Part shown: positions 13,226-34,583 of the stretch, piece after piece | Layout: every line of letters starts with the position of its first letter | Numbering within the stretch: the stretch's first letter is position 1 | Origin: Paludibacter sp. | Lineage (GTDB): Bacteria > Bacteroidota > Bacteroidia > Bacteroidales > Paludibacteraceae | Assembly (NCBI GenBank): GCA_029973975.1 | Contig: JARKQF010000245.1 | Span: forward strand, 1-64,000 | Reading direction: 5' to 3' | Length of the DNA: 64,000 nucleotides | Notes under the pieces: generated by a model | Database searches by the model: none | What the model was told of the DNA's origin: nothing | Seen by the model: only the letters and a program-made list of their open reading frames with translations | Made by a program: the position numbers and the translations under genes

Positions 13226-13286
13226 GTAAACTTGCCCCTGTAGCTCAATGGACAGAGCACCAGCCTTCTAAGCTGTTGGTTGAGGG
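13226..13286 (+). repeat. attL direct repeat (61 bp)
   Basis: Identical to 24461-24521. Begins GTAAACTT, continues with the tRNA-Arg 5' part through the variable region and ends TTGAGGG. The sequences diverge at the next base (G here, T at the right copy). Upstream of it the two copies also differ, which sets the limits of the recombined core. Confidence 0.95.
13234..13286 (+). pseudogene. Truncated tRNA-Arg(TCT) copy at attL
   Basis: Holds the acceptor 5' strand, D-arm, anticodon arm with TCT, and the start of the T stem, then runs into element DNA. The following GGGG-ATA-CCCC can form only a small hairpin and does not restore a T-arm or acceptor 3' strand, so no functional tRNA is encoded here. 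Confidence 0.88.
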
Positions 13287-13339: not shown

Positions 13340-14371
13340 ATGGCGGTAAAAAAAGGGGTATCCGGTCAGTACGAGCAAAAGTCGTTAATATACGACGAAG
13401 AGCGCGAAGCTCAAAAGAACATCGCAGAGTGGATTGATGGACTGGGGGAAACCGATGTTGGGGAACCAGAACGAGAAATAGTCCACCATACCTATATTGA
13501 AAATCCCAAAAACGAATTAGAAACAGCAGCACTTGATTTTTACCTCAGTCGTGAAGCCATGTTATGCACGGTTCAGACCATGCGGTACTATCATAATCTG
13601 TTAGGGCGTATTGTAGCCTGGTGCGAGGAACGAGGTATTACCAAACCCGATCAGATTACCACGTCCGTTGTGCGGCAACTGATGGCTGAACTGGCATCGA
13701 GAAATTTGAAAGCCTGGTATATTCACGGTTTTGCCCGTGTGATGCGTACTTTTCTGTTGTTTTGTTACAATGAGGGGCATACCAAAGAGCGAGTAGTATT
13801 TCCCATGCCGCGAGTTGGAAAACAACGTTTGCCGGTGCTTAATCAGGAACAAGTCAAAAAACTTATCAAAGCATGTAAAACTCCGCGGGAAAAAGCCTTG
13901 ATCCTGTTTATGGTTGATACAGGGCTGCGTCTGCGAGAGGTCATCAATCTGAATTGGGGCGATGTGAATTTGCAGACCGGGACAATTGTGGTGCGTATCG
14001 GCAAGGGCAATAAGTCTCGTCTGGTGGCGGCTGGCGCACAGACCTGCCGATCACTTCTTGTACTTAAGAAAGTGGAGAATTGTAACAGTAGCAGACCCGT
14101 GTTTCAAACCAGGAGCGAAACGCGATTGACACCCATGGGACTGCGCTCGATCCTCACCCGATTAAGTAAGACGGTAGGATTTTCTGTGAGTGCCCACATG
14201 CTGCGTAGGACGTGCGCGACGCTTGCGTTGAAAGCCGGACAGGATTTAGTGACGGTGCAAGCCACGCTTGGACATACGTCTGTTGAAACAACGCGCAATT
14301 ACATTCAACTGCTGGACGAGGAAGTGCTGGCGTCTCAGCGCCGGCTCAGTCCGGTGGATCACCTGAAATAA
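13340..14371 (+). CDS. int: Tyrosine recombinase / integrase
   Basis: 343 aa. A SAM-like core-binding domain (about 65-155) is followed by a catalytic domain with all expected residues: Arg in DTGLRLREV near 197, Lys in the GKGNKS beta-hairpin near 225, H-x-x-R in AHMLRRTCAT near 286, His in LGHTS near 312 and nucleophile Tyr in TTRNYIQLL near 320. The first ~60 residues form a charged N-terminal arm that may bind arm-type sites. ATG 13340 follows GGGAGG by eight bases. Directly adjacent to attL, it is the obvious catalyst of integration; no excisionase is recognisable. Confidence 0.95.
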   Translation: MAVKKGVSGQYEQKSLIYDEEREAQKNIAEWIDGLGETDVGEPEREIVHHTYIENPKNELETAALDFYLSREAMLCTVQTMRYYHNLLGRIVAWCEERGITKPDQITTSVVRQLMAELASRNLKAWYIHGFARVMRTFLLFCYNEGHTKERVVFPMPRVGKQRLPVLNQEQVKKLIKACKTPREKALILFMVDTGLRLREVINLNWGDVNLQTGTIVVRIGKGNKSRLVAAGAQTCRSLLVLKKVENCNSSRPVFQTRSETRLTPMGLRSILTRLSKTVGFSVSAHMLRRTCATLALKAGQDLVTVQATLGHTSVETTRNYIQLLDEEVLASQRRLSPVDHLK

Positions 14372-16529: not shown

Positions 16530-17046
16530 GTTCTGCTCCTACTCGCGCCCATTTTTTATAGGCGGCGAAAATGGCGGTTTGTTTTTCTATGCTTGCTGCG
16601 CAGGCGATATTGGATTGGTTACGTTTGATGGATACTTCCCAATAAGGTGCACGTTGTTGCGGGATTACCCGTTCAATGATGATCTGGTCGTTGGACATTT
16701 CAATTTCATCCAGATATGGTTGAATGTCTCCCAGGGTGCGCGGCATATTTTCCGGTTCGGTTTCAAAGAATAATCCCAGGGCGCCGTCGGTGGTTAAGAT
16801 GGGGCGCTTATCCAATTTGGAGCGGTATTGGATTTCGCGGACTTCGTTGTAATCTTTGACCAGGATGCCGGCTTTGTTCACCAGTTCTTCGATACAGGAC
16901 ATGCACAGATATCCTTCTCGATAATTTTTCTTTTCTCTGGATTTGTAGCCGGCGTTGATGGGAATTTTTGCATTACATTTCATGCAGTATGACGCCCTGG
17001 TATTTTCCTGCTGTCGGATTAGATAATTAACGAGCTTGATATTCAT
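16510..17046 (-). CDS. Zinc-ribbon element protein (178 aa)
   Basis: 178 aa. An N-terminal C4 site CMKCNAKIP ... CMSCIEEL (residues about 21-52) predicts a treble-clef or zinc-ribbon fold similar to small phage-encoded DNA-binding proteins. The remainder is mixed alpha/beta with no known motif. The ATG lies inside the end of the preceding gene (20-base overlap). Confidence 0.62.
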   Translation of the reverse strand: MNIKLVNYLIRQQENTRASYCMKCNAKIPINAGYKSREKKNYREGYLCMSCIEELVNKAGILVKDYNEVREIQYRSKLDKRPILTTDGALGLFFETEPENMPRTLGDIQPYLDEIEMSNDQIIIERVIPQQRAPYWEVSIKRNQSNIACAASIEKQTAIFAAYKKWARVGAEHGNYNI

Positions 17047-17452
17047 AAATGGCTTCTTCTAGCTCCTGGAGCGAGATTTCTTTGGTGTAGAGGAATTCAG
17101 TTGGGTCGTCATCCCAATAGCCGCGGAATTGAAATATTTCTGGGCTATCTTTGAATAATAACAATTTACATTCGCCAGTTTTCTCGCTTTCCCAATATGT
17201 GTCGTTATCATCGATGGCGGCAACGTCTTCTACTCTGTCGAGTTCTTCTGGCCCCTGGTCACAATCGCTATTGTAGATAAATTTGCATTGACCGGGAAAG
17301 TTGAAAATAGCGTATTCCAGAGTAGGCATATCTTTTGCCAGCCTCTTGAAGTCTGCCATTATTTGTTTGAGCACTTCAATATTTGGTCTGCAGACGAAAA
17401 AGATAGGATCGTCTACCCATGCCGTTGTAAATGTCTTTATCAGAATATCCAT
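17027..17452 (-). CDS. Element protein of unknown function (141 aa)
   Basis: 141 aa, very acidic (isoelectric point clearly low by composition), preceded by AAAGGTG at eight bases. No recognised motif. Starts four bases after the clamp-like gene and overlaps the next gene by 20 bases. Confidence 0.6.
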   Translation of the reverse strand: MDILIKTFTTAWVDDPIFFVCRPNIEVLKQIMADFKRLAKDMPTLEYAIFNFPGQCKFIYNSDCDQGPEELDRVEDVAAIDDNDTYWESEKTGECKLLLFKDSPEIFQFRGYWDDDPTEFLYTKEISLQELEEAIYEYQAR

Positions 17453-17455
17453 TTT

Positions 17456-17986
17456 TCACCTTTCGTTGTCTAAGCGCATGGGCATCAACAGGGACCAGCA
17501 GTTAATGTGGCCGCAAGTTTGGCTGATGGCGATGGGCTCTTCTTCGCCGCTGAATTCAAACCGGGCGATATGCCCTTTGGGGATCATGGCCGCTTTGAGA
17601 AGTTCCGGGTTGATGCCGATCAGGTCGACTGGATTGTGTATGCGAGGTTTTACAGCCTCAATATCCGGTCCGTTTGGTTCTCTGCCTTCAAATGAAACCA
17701 CCTTGCGCAAATAGTTTTTATCCGGGAGGTAAACGCCGTTGTGGATTGGCCTGGGGTCTTTGGGACTTTCGTAATACAAATACATCCAGGCTTTGTTGAC
17801 CAACCAGCCATTCGTGGCATACACAAAACCATCTCTGGCAAACAGGCAATGCAGCAAAGGACGGGTAATATCTTTGGAACAGGCCTGCTGCAGCCACTTG
17901 TAGACTGTTTCATCTTCTTCGGAAATGAAATGCAGTTTGTAGATTTCACCAAATGTCATGCGTTCGTAAGGATCGGGTTTATACAT
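17456..17986 (-). CDS. Short beta-sliding-clamp-like (DnaN-like) protein
   Basis: 176 aa. Three features recall the bacterial DNA polymerase III beta clamp. Residues about 33-62 (ACSKDITRPLLHCLFARDGF then YATNGWLV) resemble the clamp segment with D-E-T-R-P, L-x-G-V and A-T-D-G-x-R-L. A segment near 125-150 (NPELLKAAM ... ARFEFSGEEEPIAI) resembles a clamp domain-3 start. The C terminus LLMPMRL matches the almost invariant M-P-M-R-L of DnaN, here followed by four extra residues. True DnaN has about 370 aa and three domains; this has length for about one and a half. It may form a higher-order ring or be a decoy that binds host clamp partners. A GAGGTGA site precedes ATG 17986. Confidence 0.6.
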   Translation of the reverse strand: MYKPDPYERMTFGEIYKLHFISEEDETVYKWLQQACSKDITRPLLHCLFARDGFVYATNGWLVNKAWMYLYYESPKDPRPIHNGVYLPDKNYLRKVVSFEGREPNGPDIEAVKPRIHNPVDLIGINPELLKAAMIPKGHIARFEFSGEEEPIAISQTCGHINCWSLLMPMRLDNER

Positions 17987-18084
17987 TAATTCACCTCAAC
18001 AATTTTTATAATGTTAGAAATATGCGTTGAACCATTGCGAATGTGATCTTTGCTAAAGGCTTTAACTAGACGATCATCATTCAT
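17986..18084 (-). CDS. Tiny ORF (32 aa), coupled to its neighbours
   Basis: 32 codons from ATG 18084 (MNDDRLVKAFSKDHIRNGST...). It overlaps the previous stop by eight bases and its TAA shares one base with the next ATG, so it fills the gap exactly. It also contains the GAGGTGA ribosome binding site of the clamp-like gene. Basic, product unknown. Confidence 0.42.
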   Translation of the reverse strand: MNDDRLVKAFSKDHIRNGSTHISNIIKIVEVN

Positions 18085-19502: not shown

Positions 19503-20285
19503 TTTATTAATCGCACCAAAATCGCTGAAAATCGGCTAGTTTATTTGAAAAAAGCCGGGACGTGGATGTTACTTTTCTATTTTCTCCCGGAAATATTTTT
19601 TGTTTTGTCTTCGAAACCTCGCTCAAAAAATTTGATTAATAATGATTTCAACGAACTAATCTTAGGAAGAAAATTATTAAGATTTTTTAGCTGATGTGAA
19701 TGTGTGAATAAATTCGGAGGACAGACTTTTATAATATCGTATGTAGCAGTTTATTCTGAGGGAATAAACTATGCCCGTAAGAAATTAGATGATATTTTTG
19801 AGAGAAAAAGAATAAATGTGAAGTGGTGCTATCATAAGTTATTTGATAACTTAAGAATTAATAATTCAAAAATTGAATTTCTTTGGCCTCGCAATAATAA
19901 ATTATGTCATGAGGCAATAGATTGGTGTGATAATTTAATCAAAGTCTGTAGATCAAAAAGCCTTGGCACAAGTAATATTTTTCGTCAAGATAACTGCCTT
20001 CCTACGAATGACTTTTTCTCCACACCACAGATAAGAGATCTGGTTGAAAGTAAATTTTTAGAAGAAGGAATAAAAATCATTAATGCAAATGAATGCCCTG
20101 AATTCGTTCGACCTCTAGGATTTGATAAATTACACACTTTGGGGCATGGTTCATTATTCACCAGTTATCGAAATGTTCCGACAAATAGTCCTATAGTCTT
20201 TTGGTTCGACGGTGAAAAACATTCATACCCCTGGAAACCTTTATTAAAAAGAAAATCAGATAATCCAAATATATGGTGGTTTTAG
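19503..20285 (+). pseudogene. PRTase-like protein, probably 5'-truncated or interrupted by an in-frame TGA
   Basis: Codons 19695-20285 encode a protein whose parts resemble phosphoribosyltransferase-like conflict-system effectors: KFGGQTFIISYVAVYSEGI recalls the segment after the PRTase loop. The end HGSLFTSYRNVPTNSPIVFW followed by PWKPLLKR recalls their conserved C terminus. The usual acidic loop before GGQ is absent (ECVNKF). The only upstream start is GTG 19704 (193 aa) without a ribosome binding site. The same frame is open again from 19503 to 19691, separated by one TGA at 19692-19694, with an ATG at 19566. Either the gene is a remnant or it carries a nonsense mutation. It ends three bases before a NADAR gene. 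Confidence 0.5.
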
Positions 20286-20287
20286 TT

Positions 20288-20947
20288 ATGACTAAATCAG
20301 AAAACCGTGTTTATCATATTTCCGATGCAGTTACATTCCAAAAAAACAATGAACCCTTTGGTGAGCTTTCAAATATGGCTACTGATTTTCCAATCGTTGT
20401 CAACGATATTTATATACCTACAAATGAAGGGCTTTATCAAGCTTGTAAATATCCTGATTTTCCTGAACATCAAAAAGCAATTATTGATCAAAAAAGTCCA
20501 ATGGGAGCGAAATTTGCTGCCAGGAAATTTTCAAATAAAGTCAGGGCTGATTGGAGCAATGTAAAAGTAGATGTCATGCGGTGGTGTCTGAGAGTAAAAA
20601 TGGTCCAGCATTGGGATAAATTTAGCAAAGTTTTACTATCGACAGAGCAAAAAACAATTGTCGAGGTATCAAAAATCGATATGTTCTGGGCTGCGAAGCT
20701 GCAAGAAAATGGCAGTCTTTATGGGAAGAATGTGTTGGGAAGGCTTTTAATGGAACTACGGGAGATGATCACAAGAGAAGGAAAGGAAATGTTTTTAAGC
20801 ATTGACCCTCTACCTATTGAAAAATTCTTCTTATACAACGAACAAATAAGGACAGTGTTCCCTATTGTGAACAATCTTGAGGATGTAAACATAATAAATG
20901 GCAATCTCCCTTTGACACCACCGGATCAATTGACCCTTCCATTCTAA
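20288..20947 (+). CDS. NADAR-domain protein (YbiA / DUF1768-like)
   Basis: 219 aa. The NADAR domain spans about 10-165: FGELSNMATDFPIVVND, then PTNEGLYQACKYPD, KSPMGAKFAARKF, and a C-terminal DMFWAAKLQENGSLYGKN with GRLLMELRE. The family includes N-glycosidases acting on ADP-ribose-type or riboflavin-pathway substrates, and members that reverse guanine ADP-ribosylation by DarT-like toxins. About 50 extra residues follow the domain. ATG 20288 follows GGTGG by seven bases. Co-oriented with the PRTase-like gene, it suggests a nucleotide-centred defence or toxin-antitoxin cargo. Confidence 0.82.
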   Translation: MTKSENRVYHISDAVTFQKNNEPFGELSNMATDFPIVVNDIYIPTNEGLYQACKYPDFPEHQKAIIDQKSPMGAKFAARKFSNKVRADWSNVKVDVMRWCLRVKMVQHWDKFSKVLLSTEQKTIVEVSKIDMFWAAKLQENGSLYGKNVLGRLLMELREMITREGKEMFLSIDPLPIEKFFLYNEQIRTVFPIVNNLEDVNIINGNLPLTPPDQLTLPF

Positions 20948-21757: not shown

Positions 21758-22651
21758 TTATAAAACATTATTAACCGTTTGAATTGAATTTTGCCGTGAT
21801 CTGGCAAAATCGATTATGGCTTGTTTCATCTCTTCAACCCTAAATTCATCAAACATCATCTTTCTGGCGTTGAGTGCCTCACCAATTTCAACGGGTTCCA
21901 TACTTAATTGTTTAGCAAATTCTGCCAGTTGTGATTTGGTGATACGTTCGCGGGGTTTTTCGCCGCTGGTCAACCACTGGGAGAAAATATCGATTACATC
22001 ATCTGCTGGTTTCAAGATATGTTGTCCGGTCAATGTAGGACAGCGTGTTTTGGAAATATGCAGGATATTATCCGTATCCATATCTGCCACTACATCGAAT
22101 TCATACTCCAATCCCTCTCGCTGGATCGGCGCCAGCCCCACTTTACGTGGCACAGCTTTCCCACGATCGTCTTTTTCCACCACATACTCAACTTTTGACC
22201 GCATCGTGACAAATAAGTCGGCATTAACACGCAGCATACTTTCAACCAGATCATTATGTTGAGGGGTGACCGTTCGCCAGGCTGAAAATTTATTTCCGCT
22301 TCCGGCTATTCGGTCAACCATTTCCAGGGCGCCATCTTTACCGTTCCAGGCATGAGAAAGACTGTCAATCACTATGACGCGATAACCGGTGTTCTCTGCT
22401 GCATTAATCGCCTGCACATAAATGATTGGTGAAAAACTATCGAGGTTAATGACATCAAAATCAAAAATGTCAGCATACTTGGATGCTGATCCATGCTCAC
22501 TATCGATATATGCGACACGCGAATTCCGCAACTTTGCCAGACAGGTTGCGAATATCAATGATGTATAGGTCTTTCCGCTCCCGGGAGGTCCGAAAGTAGC
22601 CCATCGTCCGAAAGATTGTTCTTTGGTTGCTTTCTTGAATTTAAATTCCAT
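21758..22651 (-). CDS. Phage-type AAA/RecA-like ATPase (AAA_24, Sak4-like)
   Basis: 297 aa from ATG 22651 (two in-frame ATGs at 22657 and 22660 sit too close to the AGGAG site). Walker A FGPPGSGKTYTS is at about 20-31, YIDSEHGSAS follows on the next strand, Walker B-like VIVIDSLSHAW is near 95, and a DLFVTMRSK segment lies near 148. This is the AAA_24 nucleotide-binding protein family of phages, some members of which act as RecA/Rad51-like annealing recombinases (Sak4). The C-terminal 60 residues (ITKSQLAEFAKQL onward) form a small helical extension. It is the only clear DNA-metabolism enzyme of the element besides the integrase. Confidence 0.85.
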   Translation of the reverse strand: MEFKFKKATKEQSFGRWATFGPPGSGKTYTSLIFATCLAKLRNSRVAYIDSEHGSASKYADIFDFDVINLDSFSPIIYVQAINAAENTGYRVIVIDSLSHAWNGKDGALEMVDRIAGSGNKFSAWRTVTPQHNDLVESMLRVNADLFVTMRSKVEYVVEKDDRGKAVPRKVGLAPIQREGLEYEFDVVADMDTDNILHISKTRCPTLTGQHILKPADDVIDIFSQWLTSGEKPRERITKSQLAEFAKQLSMEPVEIGEALNARKMMFDEFRVEEMKQAIIDFARSRQNSIQTVNNVL

Positions 22652-22681
22652 AGTCATCATCTCCTGGTTATTATGAGGAAA

Positions 22682-22910: not shown

Positions 22911-23614
22911 CAATGTCTCCCATTCGGAAGTGACAAATATTTTGCACTTACTTCACGCATGCGTGTTGGTCTTAGTTCATTTCGCAGCTGGCGATTGGTC
23001 ATTGACCGCCCCTGTTCTAATAGAATTTCCACTGCGGTACGAATGCGGGTATTCTCATCTAATGGTTCGTTTGATACTACCGCGGTTAATTCGACATCAT
23101 TCAAGATATTTACTACAGCTTGACGCGCCGTTTCTGAATGAGGATCATCGCCGGTGATGATGGCTTTCAAAATAGGAACCATTTCTCGCATCTTTGATTT
23201 ACCGATATTTTCCCAAACAATTGCAATGGACTGTCCCAGGACATTTTCAATGTATGGAAAGATCACATCGCAAAAATCCCGAGTATTGGAATATTCACTT
23301 GCAGAAAGGCCGTAATCTGCAGCCAGGGTTTTAATATCTTCATACCCTCCTGGATGAGCCGCCACCAAATTTTCTGTTTCCATTTGGCGCAAAACCTTTC
23401 CCCGTTCAATCACTGCAGCGAGATCAAGTCCATTGATTAATCTCAGTTTTTCTCCTGCTATCATGGCACGGATTTCTATTCGATTGTAATGATTACTATC
23501 CACACATTGCAGCACGTTTTGTGTTGCTGCCCGAGAAATGAAATTTTCAAGTTGTTGAAGACTGGACCCAAGCGAGATGTTTGAGCTGGCATTAACAATG
23601 TTTAATTGGTTCAT
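22910..23614 (-). CDS. Element protein of unknown function (234 aa)
   Basis: 234 aa from ATG 23614, preceded by GAGGAG at ten bases; the longer frame to 23737 crosses the opposite-strand regulator and has no site. Predicted helical. The C terminus (AVEILLEQGRSMTNRQLRNE) looks like a helix-turn-helix. First gene of the second minus-strand operon, divergent from the XRE-type regulator. An early-gene or replication-initiation role is possible, not shown. Confidence 0.62.
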   Translation of the reverse strand: MNQLNIVNASSNISLGSSLQQLENFISRAATQNVLQCVDSNHYNRIEIRAMIAGEKLRLINGLDLAAVIERGKVLRQMETENLVAAHPGGYEDIKTLAADYGLSASEYSNTRDFCDVIFPYIENVLGQSIAIVWENIGKSKMREMVPILKAIITGDDPHSETARQAVVNILNDVELTAVVSNEPLDENTRIRTAVEILLEQGRSMTNRQLRNELRPTRMREVSAKYLSLPNGRH

Positions 23615-23684
23615 ATTTATTTTACTCCTCAGAATTATTTTTGCCGGGAGGCACCCTGCAAAAGATTTTGGATTTTTGGTTATT
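23615..23684. promoter_or_regulatory. Divergent promoter region between the 234-aa gene and the regulator
   Basis: Seventy bases separating the two divergent starts. It holds the GAGGAG site of the minus-strand gene. I see no clear operator repeat. A regulator facing the early operon it may repress is the usual arrangement in temperate elements. Confidence 0.35.
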
Positions 23685-24053
23685 GTGAAATTATTTAAAG
23701 GGACTTTTTGTATACGAAATTTCAAAAGCGCCGCCAAAGAAATTGGTGTATCTCACACTACGTTGGCAAGAATTATTAATGGCGAAAAGCCGAACATTGA
23801 TACTTTGATGGCTGTATCAACCTGGCTTGGAGTTCCGGTTACAACTTTTATTGAGCAACCTGGCAATTTGCAACTATCTAATCAGATCGTTGCCTTATTT
23901 GAAGCTAACCCGAAACTAGCCGCTGTATTCAGTGAAGCTCTGGCGAGGATAGAAGTAGGGGCGGCCGAACCTTCATTAATTAGGGAGATTGTTGACTATG
24001 CTTCATACCGTATTCAGACCACCGAAAGAAAGCGAGAGGGAGAAACAAATTAA
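23685..24053 (+). CDS. XRE-family helix-turn-helix regulator
   Basis: 122 aa from GTG 23685; the open frame to 23577 would overlap the divergent gene. The HTH core FKSAAKEIGVSHTTLARI followed by INGEKPNIDTLMAVSTWLGV and VTTFIEQP is a standard Cro/C1-type domain, although the first helix is short. The C-terminal half is helical and probably dimerises. Likely the regulator of the divergent operon and of element maintenance. Confidence 0.78.
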   Translation: MKLFKGTFCIRNFKSAAKEIGVSHTTLARIINGEKPNIDTLMAVSTWLGVPVTTFIEQPGNLQLSNQIVALFEANPKLAAVFSEALARIEVGAAEPSLIREIVDYASYRIQTTERKREGETN

Positions 24054-24460: not shown

Positions 24461-24521
24461 GTAAACTTGCCCCTGTAGCTCAATGGACAGAGCACCAGCC
24501 TTCTAAGCTGTTGGTTGAGGG
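24461..24521 (+). repeat. attR direct repeat (61 bp)
   Basis: Identical copy of 13226-13286. Here the sequence continues into the genuine tRNA T-arm (TTCGAATCC), so the 3' part of this tRNA is original chromosome and the repeat is element-derived or recombinant. Confidence 0.95.
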
Positions 24522-24541
24522 TTCGAATCCCCCCAGGGGCG
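24469..24541 (+). tRNA. tRNA-Arg (anticodon TCT)
   Basis: 73 bases: acceptor GCCCCTG / CAGGGGC with discriminator G, D-arm GCTC/GAGC, anticodon loop CTTCTAA with TCT at 24502-24504, T-loop TTCGAAT. The anticodon stem has one mismatch at its outer pair. CCA is not encoded. It reads AGA codons. The gene is intact but its 5' flank is element DNA. Confidence 0.97.
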
Positions 24542-24582
24542 CTCATTTTTCCATATTTCTCAAAAAAAAGGGAAAAGTTAAT

Positions 24583-31515: not shown

Positions 31516-32217
31516 ATGAATCCAGTTGCCCAATTATTCAACTTACAAAAGACTGACATTGAGCTCAATCGCATTGAGAATCGTTTTCAACAACTGGAAG
31601 CAGAAATTAATGCTGATCAGACTGTTTATAAAGCCGAACAAAAATTGCTCGAGGCAAAGAACAAACAAATCAAATTATCTCAGGCTTTACGTTCCATTGA
31701 AGAGAATCGGAAGCAGATTCAAATAAAAATCGAAATAACCGATAAAAAATTATACAGTGGAAGTATCAAAGCCCCCAAAGAATTGCAAGACCTCCAGTCA
31801 GAATTAACCATGAATAAGAATATATTGAAATCAATGGAAGAAGATGAACTTCAAGCAATGATTGAGTGTGAACAGCATGAGGTGTATTTCAAGCAATGTG
31901 AAGAGAACCTCAAATCAACGCGGGCAGCAAGCACAGCCAAACACAGCCTGGCACTGGGTGAAAAGAGTCAACTGAGCCTGGAAAAGGACCGACTTTTACG
32001 CGAACGAAGCGCAATACAAAGTTCAATTCCCGATGAACTTAACAATTTATATTTACAGTTAAAAAAGAATAAGCATGGCCTGGCTGTCTCAAAAATTACT
32101 GAAAACAATTGTGAAAGCTGCGGCGCCTCAATAACACCGGCAATGGTTCAAACAGTTCGCGCCTTGAAAGAAGTAGTTCTTTGCCCATCCTGTGGGCGAA
32201 TCCTCTACGCTGGTTAA
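31516..32217 (+). CDS. Coiled-coil C4 zinc-ribbon protein (zf-RING_7 / CdsZ-like)
   Basis: 233 aa from ATG 31516. A long antiparallel coiled coil (residues about 10-185) is followed by a C-terminal zinc ribbon CESCGASI ... CPSCGRIL. This is the DUF164/zf-RING_7 family, whose members are proposed to bind nucleic acid or act as adaptors; function uncertain. The start is supported by the promoter geometry just upstream. Confidence 0.85.
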   Translation: MNPVAQLFNLQKTDIELNRIENRFQQLEAEINADQTVYKAEQKLLEAKNKQIKLSQALRSIEENRKQIQIKIEITDKKLYSGSIKAPKELQDLQSELTMNKNILKSMEEDELQAMIECEQHEVYFKQCEENLKSTRAASTAKHSLALGEKSQLSLEKDRLLRERSAIQSSIPDELNNLYLQLKKNKHGLAVSKITENNCESCGASITPAMVQTVRALKEVVLCPSCGRILYAG

Positions 32218-32219
32218 AT

Positions 32220-34583
32220 ATGCCGCACCTACCGCATATCAATATCGATCGCATTTCTTTCTGGCTTGGGTTCTTTTCAGCACTGCTTGTGGTGTATTTT
32301 TACTCCCGCATCCAGAGATGGTTCCCTGGATGGAAAACTTTTTTTCAAAATTGGATTGAACAATTAAGAACACACTGGGTATTTCGAGTTGAGATTAAGC
32401 TGCGGGATATCATTTTTTCACGCGCCCAAAAAGAACACCTCGCGATCTCAATATGCTCATTGGATGAAATTATCATCCCACCAGAATTGTTAATTCCACC
32501 ACAAAGCGAGTCTTCAACATCTGGCGCTCCAACAATAACAATAAAAGAACAGGCTATTCCCTTTCTGCCTGATTACCCCGAACTATCCTCTCAATTCAAT
32601 CTCGAGACCATTTCACCATTTCGAGCAATCAAAGCATGTAATCGGGTCATCATATGCGGGCAGGCTGGGTATGGAAAATCAGTTTGCTTGGCCTACATAG
32701 CCTCAATGATCGCCAAAAGATCTGAAATTACCGGTGATTTATCTCAATACTTGCCATTATTCTTGAATTGCAGAGATTTCATTTGGGAAGAAAACCATTC
32801 ATCCACATCCATACAACAGGTCTTCGAGACATTCATTCAATCACTCCCCCAAAATATTCAAAAAGACTCTAAAAGAGTTTTAGATAATTTCTTGAAAAAT
32901 GAGCACATAATTTTTCTACTGGATGGAATGGATGAACTCTCGCCAGATGAATTCCAATCCTGCTCTGGGTTTATCAGCAGATTGCTAAATGAATTACCAA
33001 ATTTGTCCATTGTTACCACGGCAACTCCCCAATTTTTGGGTGGTTTAATTGAACTGGGTTTCGAACCATTTCCCATTGCCTGTTGGAATCAGACAAAAAA
33101 AGCAAACTTTATAGAAAAGTGGCTGGATTTATTAAGCCCGCGCATCATTGAGCAATCACAAAACACCATCGACTTGACCATTTTCTCGACCTGGTTAAAA
33201 AGCCATTCGCTTTTTCATTCTCCCCTGGAATGGACAATGTTGATTCTTGCTGCAGTAACAGGTAACCCGTTTCAATCTACAAAAACGCAAATATTACAAA
33301 CCTATCTGGCTCCAATTTTGCGAAAAGCCAATCTTGGTAAATATGCAAAATCACTTATTGAAGGTGGTTTGGACTCGCAAGCATCCCAACGTCCTACACC
33401 TCTCACACCCGATTCGCAAGCAATCGACTTGGGTGTAATCAGGCAGAATCTTGATGGGAGTTATAATTTCAGGTGCCCAGTATTTACAGGCTTTTTCGCT
33501 TCACGGCAATATGACAGTTCAATTACACCCGATTTCAAGGATATTCAGTTCAACCCGGCATTTGAGCAATTAGGCTTTATGCCAGCCAAAGATCAGATTG
33601 ATCATCAATTTTTTAACACCCTTAGCGTCAACGAAATTAATAAGCAACCTCAATTATTATCCTCATTGCGTTGGTTAAGGGAATATCCAGAAAACCATCC
33701 TGCTCGAGTTGCAGCATTGAGAAAAATGGTGGGGTGGCTTCATGACGAATCAATCAATCTCATAACGCGCACGAAAATTATTACAGCATTTTTTATAATC
33801 AACGATACTTCAACAGGGCTTCTCTTTAGACAAATAAGCAAATCAAAAGCAGAAGCGGTGAGGTATTTATCTCTACTTGGATTGGGAGCAATTGGCGATG
33901 ATTCGACACTGGTTGAAATTCAACGATTACTGAGAGATGAATCAACACTGGTACGTGACACAGCCTGTCTGGCGCTTCAATCATTAAACAGCCCTGCGTC
34001 ACGCAAATCGCTTCAACAAGTTTTTGAACATGGAGATGAGGACCAGCAATTCGCTGCAGCCGAAGTATTAGCGGTCGCCGAAAAATTTGGGCACGATGCT
34101 CTTCTTGAAGGGTTAAAGAATGAGAATTTATTAATTCGCCGGGCAGCCGTTCATGGTTTAGCACAAATTCACCAAGATTGGGCAACCAAAAAACTCGAAG
34201 AAGTATCCATCAGCGATGGGCAATGGGTTGTGCGTGATCTCGCTGCACAATACGTGGCAGCTCACAAATCAAATCAATTTCCATCAATTTCCAGGCCAGT
34301 CGAATCAAGCCGCACCCCCTGGCTAATTGAATATGCCAGCACACAGGGAATTACCATTTCACCAGCCACTCCGTCTGACGATCTGTTGGGAAAAATTATT
34401 ATTGATGGGCCTGATGAATTAAGACCAAAAGCTTATCTGCAAATTGCCCGCTATTCAAAAATTTCAACCGCACTCACCATCATTGCTAATAACCCGGCAG
34501 CAACCATTAATCATTCTGACTTGGTTAATTATTGCCTATGGCTATTGTCGGCAAGAAATGTAAACGATCTCAAGTATTCTTAA
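32220..34583 (+). CDS. Membrane-tethered NACHT-like NTPase with HEAT-type repeats
   Basis: 787 aa from ATG 32220, two bases after the previous stop. A membrane helix lies at about 11-30. A NACHT/STAND-type P-loop domain follows with Walker A CGQAGYGKS near 146 and Walker B FLLDGMDELSPDE near 232. A helical region leads into HEAT-like repeats (about 545-690: LLGLGAIGDDSTLVEIQRLL, ACLALQSLNS, AAEVLAVAEKFG, AAVHGLAQIH). Such proteins are signal-transducing NTPases; many bacterial NACHT proteins act in phage defence, but membrane-anchored chromosomal ones also have other roles. The gene ends overlapping the convergent DUF167 gene by 14 bases. Confidence 0.75.
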   Translation: MPHLPHINIDRISFWLGFFSALLVVYFYSRIQRWFPGWKTFFQNWIEQLRTHWVFRVEIKLRDIIFSRAQKEHLAISICSLDEIIIPPELLIPPQSESSTSGAPTITIKEQAIPFLPDYPELSSQFNLETISPFRAIKACNRVIICGQAGYGKSVCLAYIASMIAKRSEITGDLSQYLPLFLNCRDFIWEENHSSTSIQQVFETFIQSLPQNIQKDSKRVLDNFLKNEHIIFLLDGMDELSPDEFQSCSGFISRLLNELPNLSIVTTATPQFLGGLIELGFEPFPIACWNQTKKANFIEKWLDLLSPRIIEQSQNTIDLTIFSTWLKSHSLFHSPLEWTMLILAAVTGNPFQSTKTQILQTYLAPILRKANLGKYAKSLIEGGLDSQASQRPTPLTPDSQAIDLGVIRQNLDGSYNFRCPVFTGFFASRQYDSSITPDFKDIQFNPAFEQLGFMPAKDQIDHQFFNTLSVNEINKQPQLLSSLRWLREYPENHPARVAALRKMVGWLHDESINLITRTKIITAFFIINDTSTGLLFRQISKSKAEAVRYLSLLGLGAIGDDSTLVEIQRLLRDESTLVRDTACLALQSLNSPASRKSLQQVFEHGDEDQQFAAAEVLAVAEKFGHDALLEGLKNENLLIRRAAVHGLAQIHQDWATKKLEEVSISDGQWVVRDLAAQYVAAHKSNQFPSISRPVESSRTPWLIEYASTQGITISPATPSDDLLGKIIIDGPDELRPKAYLQIARYSKISTALTIIANNPAATINHSDLVNYCLWLLSARNVNDLKYS

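Follow-up and report, generated by a model that had tools for sequence, protein, structure and literature searches.

A divergent half-length relative of the sliding clamp in a small integrated element, possibly a ring-less binder of clamp-binding peptides

The 176-aa protein encoded on the minus strand at positions 17456–17986 of the window (the whole 64,000-nucleotide stretch analyzed here) is supported by sequence comparison as a divergent member of phrog_3007, a family of half-length clamp proteins found in phages. Its direct similarity to the bacterial clamp DnaN is weak, and the relationship rests on the phrog_3007 family as a bridge. We lean slightly toward the view that this mini-clamp acts without forming a ring, binding the clamp-binding motif (CBM) peptides of host clamp clients and thereby holding or removing those clients for an element in which no polymerase was detected.

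Relationship to a family of half-length clamps

The mini-clamp gene extends on the minus strand from an ATG at 17986 to a stop codon ending at 17456. Direct reading of the sequence places a likely ribosome-binding site, GAGGTG (17992–17997, minus strand), 5 nt before the ATG, and the next minus-strand gene (17027–17452) begins 3 bp past the stop; thus, the gene looks intact and lies in an apparent operon. An earlier note had drawn attention to the motifs DITRPLLH, YATNGW, and LLMPMRL plus four residues in this 176-aa reading frame, and all are present, encoded on the minus strand. DITRPLLH (aa 39–46; codons 17849–17872) corresponds approximately to residues 149–156 of Escherichia coli DnaN at the start of domain 2, a stretch that includes pocket residues R152 and L155 and in which alignments disagree by one residue in register. 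Within YATNGW (aa 56–61), ATNG (aa 57–60; codons 17807–17818) is equivalent to the ATDG of DnaN 171–174, with pocket residues T172 and G174, and within LLMPMRL (aa 166–172, followed by DNER), MPMRL (aa 168–172; codons 17471–17485) is equivalent to the DnaN C terminus, 362–366, likewise part of the pocket.

The proposal that the protein is clamp-like held through the phrog_3007 family and a family-based AlphaFold model, but direct comparison with DnaN by profile or hhalign was not significant. Among 38,880 PHROGs families, phrog_3007 matched the window protein with an E value of 6.1e-4, its positions 111–189 of 190 aligning with the C-terminal 69 residues (aa 107–175). The nearest relative found, P0001 (WLZ21242.1, 182 aa, from Bacteroides phage C3_41T2LP), shares 37.8% identity over 37 aa and 26% overall (tblastn E of 0.07 in the phage collection; phmmer E of 2.5e-6 in a small set) and is itself clearly DnaN-like (hhalign, 95.9%; phrog_947, E of 1.1e-8). 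Searches for relatives of P0001 in phages and IMG/VR found none, with one search returning two full-length DnaN proteins only. A mini-clamp profile of 47 sequences (40 non-redundant viral sequences and 7 other phage mini-clamps) scored the window protein at 18.3 bits, or 12.6 bits without P0001, and none of 2000 shuffled sequences reached these scores (maximum, 4.8 with and 4.2 without P0001). When 2676 frames of at least 100 aa were ranked, with clamp labels given by DnaN or a six-member mini-clamp profile at an E value of ≤1e-3, 131 frames outranked the window protein, namely, 130 that were independently labelled as clamps and its own second copy in locus L001. Every unlabelled frame ranked beneath it, as did one clamp-labelled frame (L032); its E value in this ranking was 2.5e-4, or 0.015 without P0001. 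By itself, the window protein did not reach an E value of 1e-3 with either the DnaN profile or the six-member mini-clamp profile, 30 of 2000 shuffles scored as high with the DnaN profile, and hhalign of the single sequence against DnaN gave a probability of 2.5%. Pfam and NCBIfam returned no match.

In PHROGs, phrog_3007 is labelled "RusA-like resolvase," a label borne by many phage records; its positions 2–148 align with DnaN 129–281, that is, with domain 2 and the first part of domain 3. All nine other phage mini-clamps tested matched phrog_3007 at an E value of 2.6e-31 or better, and PF02767, the DnaN central domain, matched seven of eight mini-clamps at an E value of ≤0.0034, two of them above the Pfam cut-off. 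The RusA domain gave no match for the window protein at an E value of ≤10 and none for the eight mini-clamps at ≤1, and identity with a RusA Holliday junction resolvase was rejected; seven of the eight mini-clamps match PF02767 instead. Membership in a clamp family would correct a label that misleads on many phage records. A second family, phrog_12598, is also labelled a RusA-like Holliday junction resolvase yet matches DnaN.

The family is broad. A gamma-type DnaN domain 2 query (E limit of 10) found matches in 303 phage records; with the Escherichia phage C1 protein as the query, relatives at E ≤ 1e-3 occurred in 294, of which 282 covered at least 80% of it; both counts include many near-duplicates, with lengths checked for part of them only. 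Six mini-clamps that were read out, from Sodalis phage SO-1, C1, Skarpretter, two Vibrio phages, and one Acinetobacter phage, are 172–194 aa long. At least 476 IMG/VR stretches encode a mini-clamp relative, a number that may include full-length clamps; among the best 80 of these, 79 lie in frames of ≤269 aa; the remaining one, L124, is a full-length DnaN in a frame of 385 aa. Genomes, too, gave matches to the phrog_3007 profile: 9 of 14 controls, 44 of 48 from the bin's genus, and 184 of 200 from the bin's family. A DnaN lies in every one of the 26 loci (L004–L029) retrieved from these matches. The DnaN of L004 shows all three Pfam clamp domains (PF00712, PF02767, and PF02768), and the window protein shows none. 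Half-length phage clamps were undescribed in the open-access literature searched, a scope too narrow to prove novelty. The window protein is a new divergent variant, shortened in mid-protein, of a broad family already in databases. Oversized chains were also encountered: Bacteroides phages BI-TP1 (L030:2102–3832) and LoVEphage (L032:2102–3961) encode proteins of 576 and 619 aa, respectively, part of which matches DnaN domains 2 and 3.

The host assignment of the contig bears on these searches. The DnaN of the bin (L004) is Bacteroidales-like by sequence reading, and the bin holds two DnaN types (C231 and C78). The window encodes a 7TM-HD protein, and contig C201 of the same bin carries another copy. 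Of 12 other genomes from the bin's genus and order, 9 have such proteins, to which that of the window is only 29–32% identical; in the phylum of Herpetosiphon, which we take to be Chloroflexota, 50 of 251 genomes match it at an E value of ≤1e-110, the best with 53% identity over 686 aa. The window contig (C331) is therefore probably a Chloroflexota contig misplaced in a Bacteroidales-like bin, and searches in the bin's order, genus, and family do not reflect its true relatives. Exact 8-residue patterns found no close relatives of the mini-clamp in IMG/VR or the species-genome collection, a two-sequence alignment found none, and none were found on plasmids. Among 197 other genomes of the bin's order, the single match at an E value of ≤0.01 (49 aa, with two stop codons) was judged to be chance, and none of 301 genomes of Herpetosiphon's phylum matched at ≤0.001. 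In the closest host genome's family, two of 147 genomes gave matches, both judged to be chance and rejected: one sequence (L154) reads as a serpin, and the other (L155) is a frame of 63 aa that contains a stop.

Retained segments, peptide pocket, and predicted structure

In E. coli DnaN numbering, the family covers approximately residues 133–252 and 312–366, a layout of domain 2 plus the last half of domain 3 as a stand-alone short protein. The window protein is laid out likewise, with the second half of domain 2 shortened; as counted by eye, its stretch from ATNG to the PD motif lacks ~15 aa relative to L050. None of the 47 family members, nor the window protein, has the parts that bear the dimer interface, namely, domain 1 and the first half of domain 3.

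A review (PMC11139829) lists 18 peptide-pocket residues of DnaN and names residues of its dimer interface. The 18 pocket positions are occupied in at least 98% of the 47 mini-clamps, and all 18 are occupied in the window protein. Mean identity of the mini-clamps to E. coli DnaN is 0.78 in the pocket versus 0.23 at 145 other positions. The stretch 149–157 had been used to find most of the mini-clamps; with it removed, the values are 0.76 (n = 16 pocket positions) versus 0.20 (n = 135 others; p = 4.6e-8). For comparison, 30 DnaN controls show 0.55 in the pocket versus 0.25 elsewhere. The window protein is identical to E. coli DnaN at 10 of 18 pocket positions versus 17 of 119 other positions (Fisher p = 2.8e-4), and its eight changed pocket residues include H175 to W, R176 to L, and Y323 to L.

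Interface positions 78, 103, 106, 272, 273, 298, and 304 are occupied in none of the 47 mini-clamps and have no counterpart in the window protein. Identity at interface residues is also low in the DnaN control set (0.03–0.13, except 0.90 for E304), and the argument about the ring thus rests on the absent segments. The window protein has an overall net charge of −3, and its first helix, whose limits are approximate, has a net charge of −2 versus a family mean of +2.3. The homo-oligomeric ring that the earlier note envisaged was not supported, with the DnaN interface segments absent in 47 of 47 members and an acidic first helix where DNA would be faced; a ring is unlikely for the window protein.

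Structure prediction against DnaN, which had been suggested as a check, gave a family-based AlphaFold model that aligns to DnaN. The window protein alone was modelled with a pLDDT of 31.5; with 42 relatives, AlphaFold2 reached a pLDDT of 76.1 and a pTM of 0.70 and predicted a DnaN domain-2/3 fold. Because family sequences were used to build it, this model is not independent of the family alignment. VIA-align superimposed it on DnaN with Z scores of 10.0–11.3 over 136–148 residues, mostly DnaN ~121–374; of the 50 matches listed, 48 have titles naming a clamp or Pol III beta, and 46 have ranges beginning at residues 120–165. Foldseek found no PDB match at an E value of ≤0.001 (best, a fatty-acid-binding protein at 0.06), and the best-placed DnaN structures had TM scores of 0.44–0.49; among viral predicted structures, 10 matched at ≤0.001, and the names of five refer to Pol III beta or a sliding clamp. 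PCNA and UL44 chains appeared among the Foldseek results, mostly with low TM scores, and were absent from the 50 VIA-align matches listed, which we do not take as excluding kinship with clamps of the PCNA/gp45 type, whose two-domain subunits form trimers.

The carrier element and the genomic neighborhoods of relatives

The mini-clamp gene lies in an 11.2-kb integrated element bracketed by a perfect 61-bp direct repeat (left copy, 13226–13286; right copy, 24461–24521), whose copies fit attachment sites. The right copy overlaps a tRNA-Arg (TCT) gene on the plus strand (24469–24542), the integration target. These features bear out the description of the carrier as a small mobile element. The tRNA-Arg copy found intact has its 5′ part within the right-end attachment core of the element, and this part may therefore derive from the element. 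A tyrosine integrase (13340–14371, plus strand; Phage_integrase, E of 1.6e-33) lies at the left end and carries a weak gpW match under the Pfam cut-off (E of 0.013). Other genes encode a RecA/Sak4-like AAA_24 ATPase (21758–22660, minus strand; PF13479, E of 3.1e-20; phrog_1366, E of 4.2e-80), with further matches to Sak4-like phrog_124 (E of 2e-6) and, weakly, the clamp loader family phrog_168 (E of 0.016), and a repressor-like HTH protein (23577–24053, plus strand; phrog_4583, E of 4.6e-5). A PRTase-CE protein (19704–20285, plus strand; PF24390, E of 1.4e-15) overlaps the start of a NADAR gene (20273–20947, plus strand; NADAR, E of 4.1e-25). The PRTase-CE match covers the C-terminal part of the domain (profile positions 139–253 of 253); since none of the three forward frames immediately before it showed a long open N-terminal part, this may be a truncated gene. 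When the candidate ORFs of the element were scanned, all 19 with PHROGs and 14 of them with Pfam, nothing convincingly matched a polymerase, primase, helicase, terminase, or capsid protein; the earlier note's description of the element as polymerase-less agrees with the 0 of 19 ORFs matching a polymerase in PHROGs and 0 of 14 in Pfam. The element could represent either a phage satellite or a small integrative element. Outside it, a NACHT-HEAT-repeat protein (32181–34583, plus strand) is a possible defense or signalling ATPase.

The NADAR protein ends in PPDQLTLPF, and its last six residues, QLTLPF (codons 20927–20944), form a hexameric CBM. QLxLF and QLxLxF are described as the strongest CBM forms in excerpts of PMC11139829. 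A broad pattern set before looking matched twice among the 19 ORFs of the element, at the NADAR end and, inside the ATPase, at QAIIDF. A stricter version, adopted once the QLTLPF match had been seen, is expected 0.004 times in the 19 ORFs by composition and occurred in the last 10 residues of only 1 of 1275 genes, the NADAR protein itself, in a set in which many loci are near-duplicates. The tail is absent from three phage NADAR relatives, and a pattern search for NADAR relatives in IMG/VR found none. NADARs reverse guanine ADP-ribosylation, according to the abstract of PMC11125620; if anchored to either the mini-clamp or the host clamp, the protein might remove ADP-ribose from DNA there. The QLTLPF tail may serve the host clamp instead of the mini-clamp.

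The neighborhoods of relatives vary, and several relatives lie close to replication genes. In Acinetobacter phage 4316 and in BcepC6B, the mini-clamp gene comes after one for a DNA polymerase, and a frame with a mini-clamp-type C terminus, judged by that terminus only, follows a DNA polymerase in L105 and L111; such adjacency fits a processivity role as well. P0001 is encoded in the 74-kb genome of phage C3_41T2LP in the same region as a DNA polymerase, a dUTPase, and an SSB. The polymerase of this phage (L003:1589–3685), ~2.3 kb upstream of the mini-clamp gene, ends in NELQELPF, a possible clamp-binding tail. A broad pattern, which does not accept LQELPF, found no CBM-like string in four phage polymerases. 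In SO-1, the mini-clamp lies among head genes, with replication genes including a polymerase elsewhere, and the two stretches of phage C1 that were read (13635–46667 of 46667) have annotated primase and helicases and no polymerase.

ORFs upstream of mini-clamps were also inspected for CBM-like tails. By a loose pattern, 9 of 74 upstream ORFs were flagged (from 91 loci, the others lacking such an ORF). Eight of the nine look like one CII-type gene, and all three tested with Pfam matched Phage_CII; the mini-clamp directly follows the CII-type ORF in L056, L057, L064, L070, L074, L075, L087, and L088. In lambda, the replication gene O occupies the place after CII, and lambda CII has a similar CBM-like tail in a phage not known to carry a mini-clamp; for this reason, CII tails were not counted as evidence. 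The ninth flagged ORF, which immediately precedes the mini-clamp in Pseudomonas phage TC7 (region of L144:3511–3954), has QQTYIF at its very end and so may also carry a clamp-binding tail.

Possible roles and comparison with known clamps

Domain 2 of DnaN joined to the C-terminal half of domain 3 would be enough to form the CBM cleft without the ring-closing surfaces. This cleft would normally take the CBMs (e.g., QLxLF) of the Pol III alpha subunit, the clamp-loader delta subunit, and other clients. The mini-clamp, monomeric or in small oligomers, may bind such peptides away from the ring or next to it, and either hold host clamp clients for the element or take them from the host clamp; in this way, an element without a detected polymerase could gain a grip on host replication. 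That it competes for polymerase with the host clamp, already raised in the earlier note, is the leading idea and would be compatible with the sequence, since the retained part is the peptide pocket. A possible client encoded in the same element is the NADAR protein with its QLTLPF end. A further-reaching proposal, which we regard as unlikely, is that the element encodes a private clamp–client pair in which the pocket binds the QLTLPF of its own NADAR and/or host Pol III tails, with phage mini-clamps in general acting as soluble CBM receptors. If so, the NADAR would reverse DNA ADP-ribosylation, and clamp mimicry would serve to take over or stall host replication across many phages.

Other explanations have to be set against this. 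Several copies could close round DNA for a host or phage polymerase, as four copies with 1.5 domains each, or six with a single domain, would supply the 12 half-domains of a clamp ring; the clamp fold of the model, a surface on the unpaired half of domain 3 that might pair with another copy, and the proximity of several relatives to replication genes speak for such a ring, but the known dimer-interface segments are missing in 47 of 47 members and the window protein is acidic in its first helix and net negative (−3) overall, so we consider it improbable. A ring-less processivity factor like herpesvirus UL42/UL44, binding the polymerase and contacting DNA directly, has precedent in non-ring, DNA-binding clamps (described in excerpts of PMC9690074) and would suit both the family's mean first-helix charge of +2.3 and the polymerase genes preceding the mini-clamp in 4316 and BcepC6B and the similar frames in L105 and L111. 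Against it stand the net negative charge of the window protein, the element with no polymerase found, and two annotated polymerases without a CBM-like string under the pattern used, which together make this role quite improbable here.

It is very improbable, in our judgment, that the protein is a decaying or repurposed remnant, for example a structural adaptor, whose pocket no longer binds CBMs. The eight pocket changes, the ~15 aa missing relative to L050 between ATNG and the PD motif, and the failure to find a close relative would suit a remnant, but the open reading frame is intact, with a ribosome-binding site in an apparent operon, and pocket identity is 10 of 18 versus 17 of 119 elsewhere. 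Chance resemblance to a clamp is the most remote reading: the direct DnaN match is weak, the best PDB match in Foldseek (E of 0.06) is not a clamp, and genome matches of 16–17 bits by phmmer proved to be chance, one reading as a serpin, but the matches are collinear in domain order and end at the exact C terminus. Coincidence would also have to account for the phrog_3007 match, the 0 of 2000 shuffles, the rank above all unlabelled members of the 2676 frames, and the rise in model pLDDT from 31 to 76 when clamp relatives were included.

If the ring-less, peptide-binding reading is correct, a phage family that keeps the docking groove and drops the ring separates the two functions of the clamp and would represent a new type of interference with host replication. 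Herpesvirus UL42/UL44, as described in excerpts of PMC9690074, are in principle ring-less clamp relatives, as proposed here, but they combine direct DNA binding with a polymerase of their own, and no such partner was found in the element. The phage clamps of phrog_3007 (e.g., SO-1 gp07, C1 ORF26, and Skarpretter gp04) share with the window protein their length, domain layout, MPxR end, retained pocket, and missing ring interface. They are ~20% identical to it, and it differs in the shortened second half of domain 2, the acidic first helix, TRP in place of VRYY, the four residues after MPMRL, and its location in a small integrative element with no capsid genes detected. P0001 has the same RP-type motif and is collinear, whereas it retains the middle strands. 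Bacterial DnaN is predicted to share the fold of residues ~121–374 and the peptide pocket, but it has three domains, is 366–378 aa long in the proteins read, and forms a dimeric ring, in contrast to a 176-aa protein without the interface; to our knowledge, known bacterial replication clamps all work as rings. Twort gp168 is a phage clamp inhibitor that binds the clamp. Inhibitors of this type also interfere with the host clamp, whereas the window protein itself resembles the clamp and would bind the clamp's clients.
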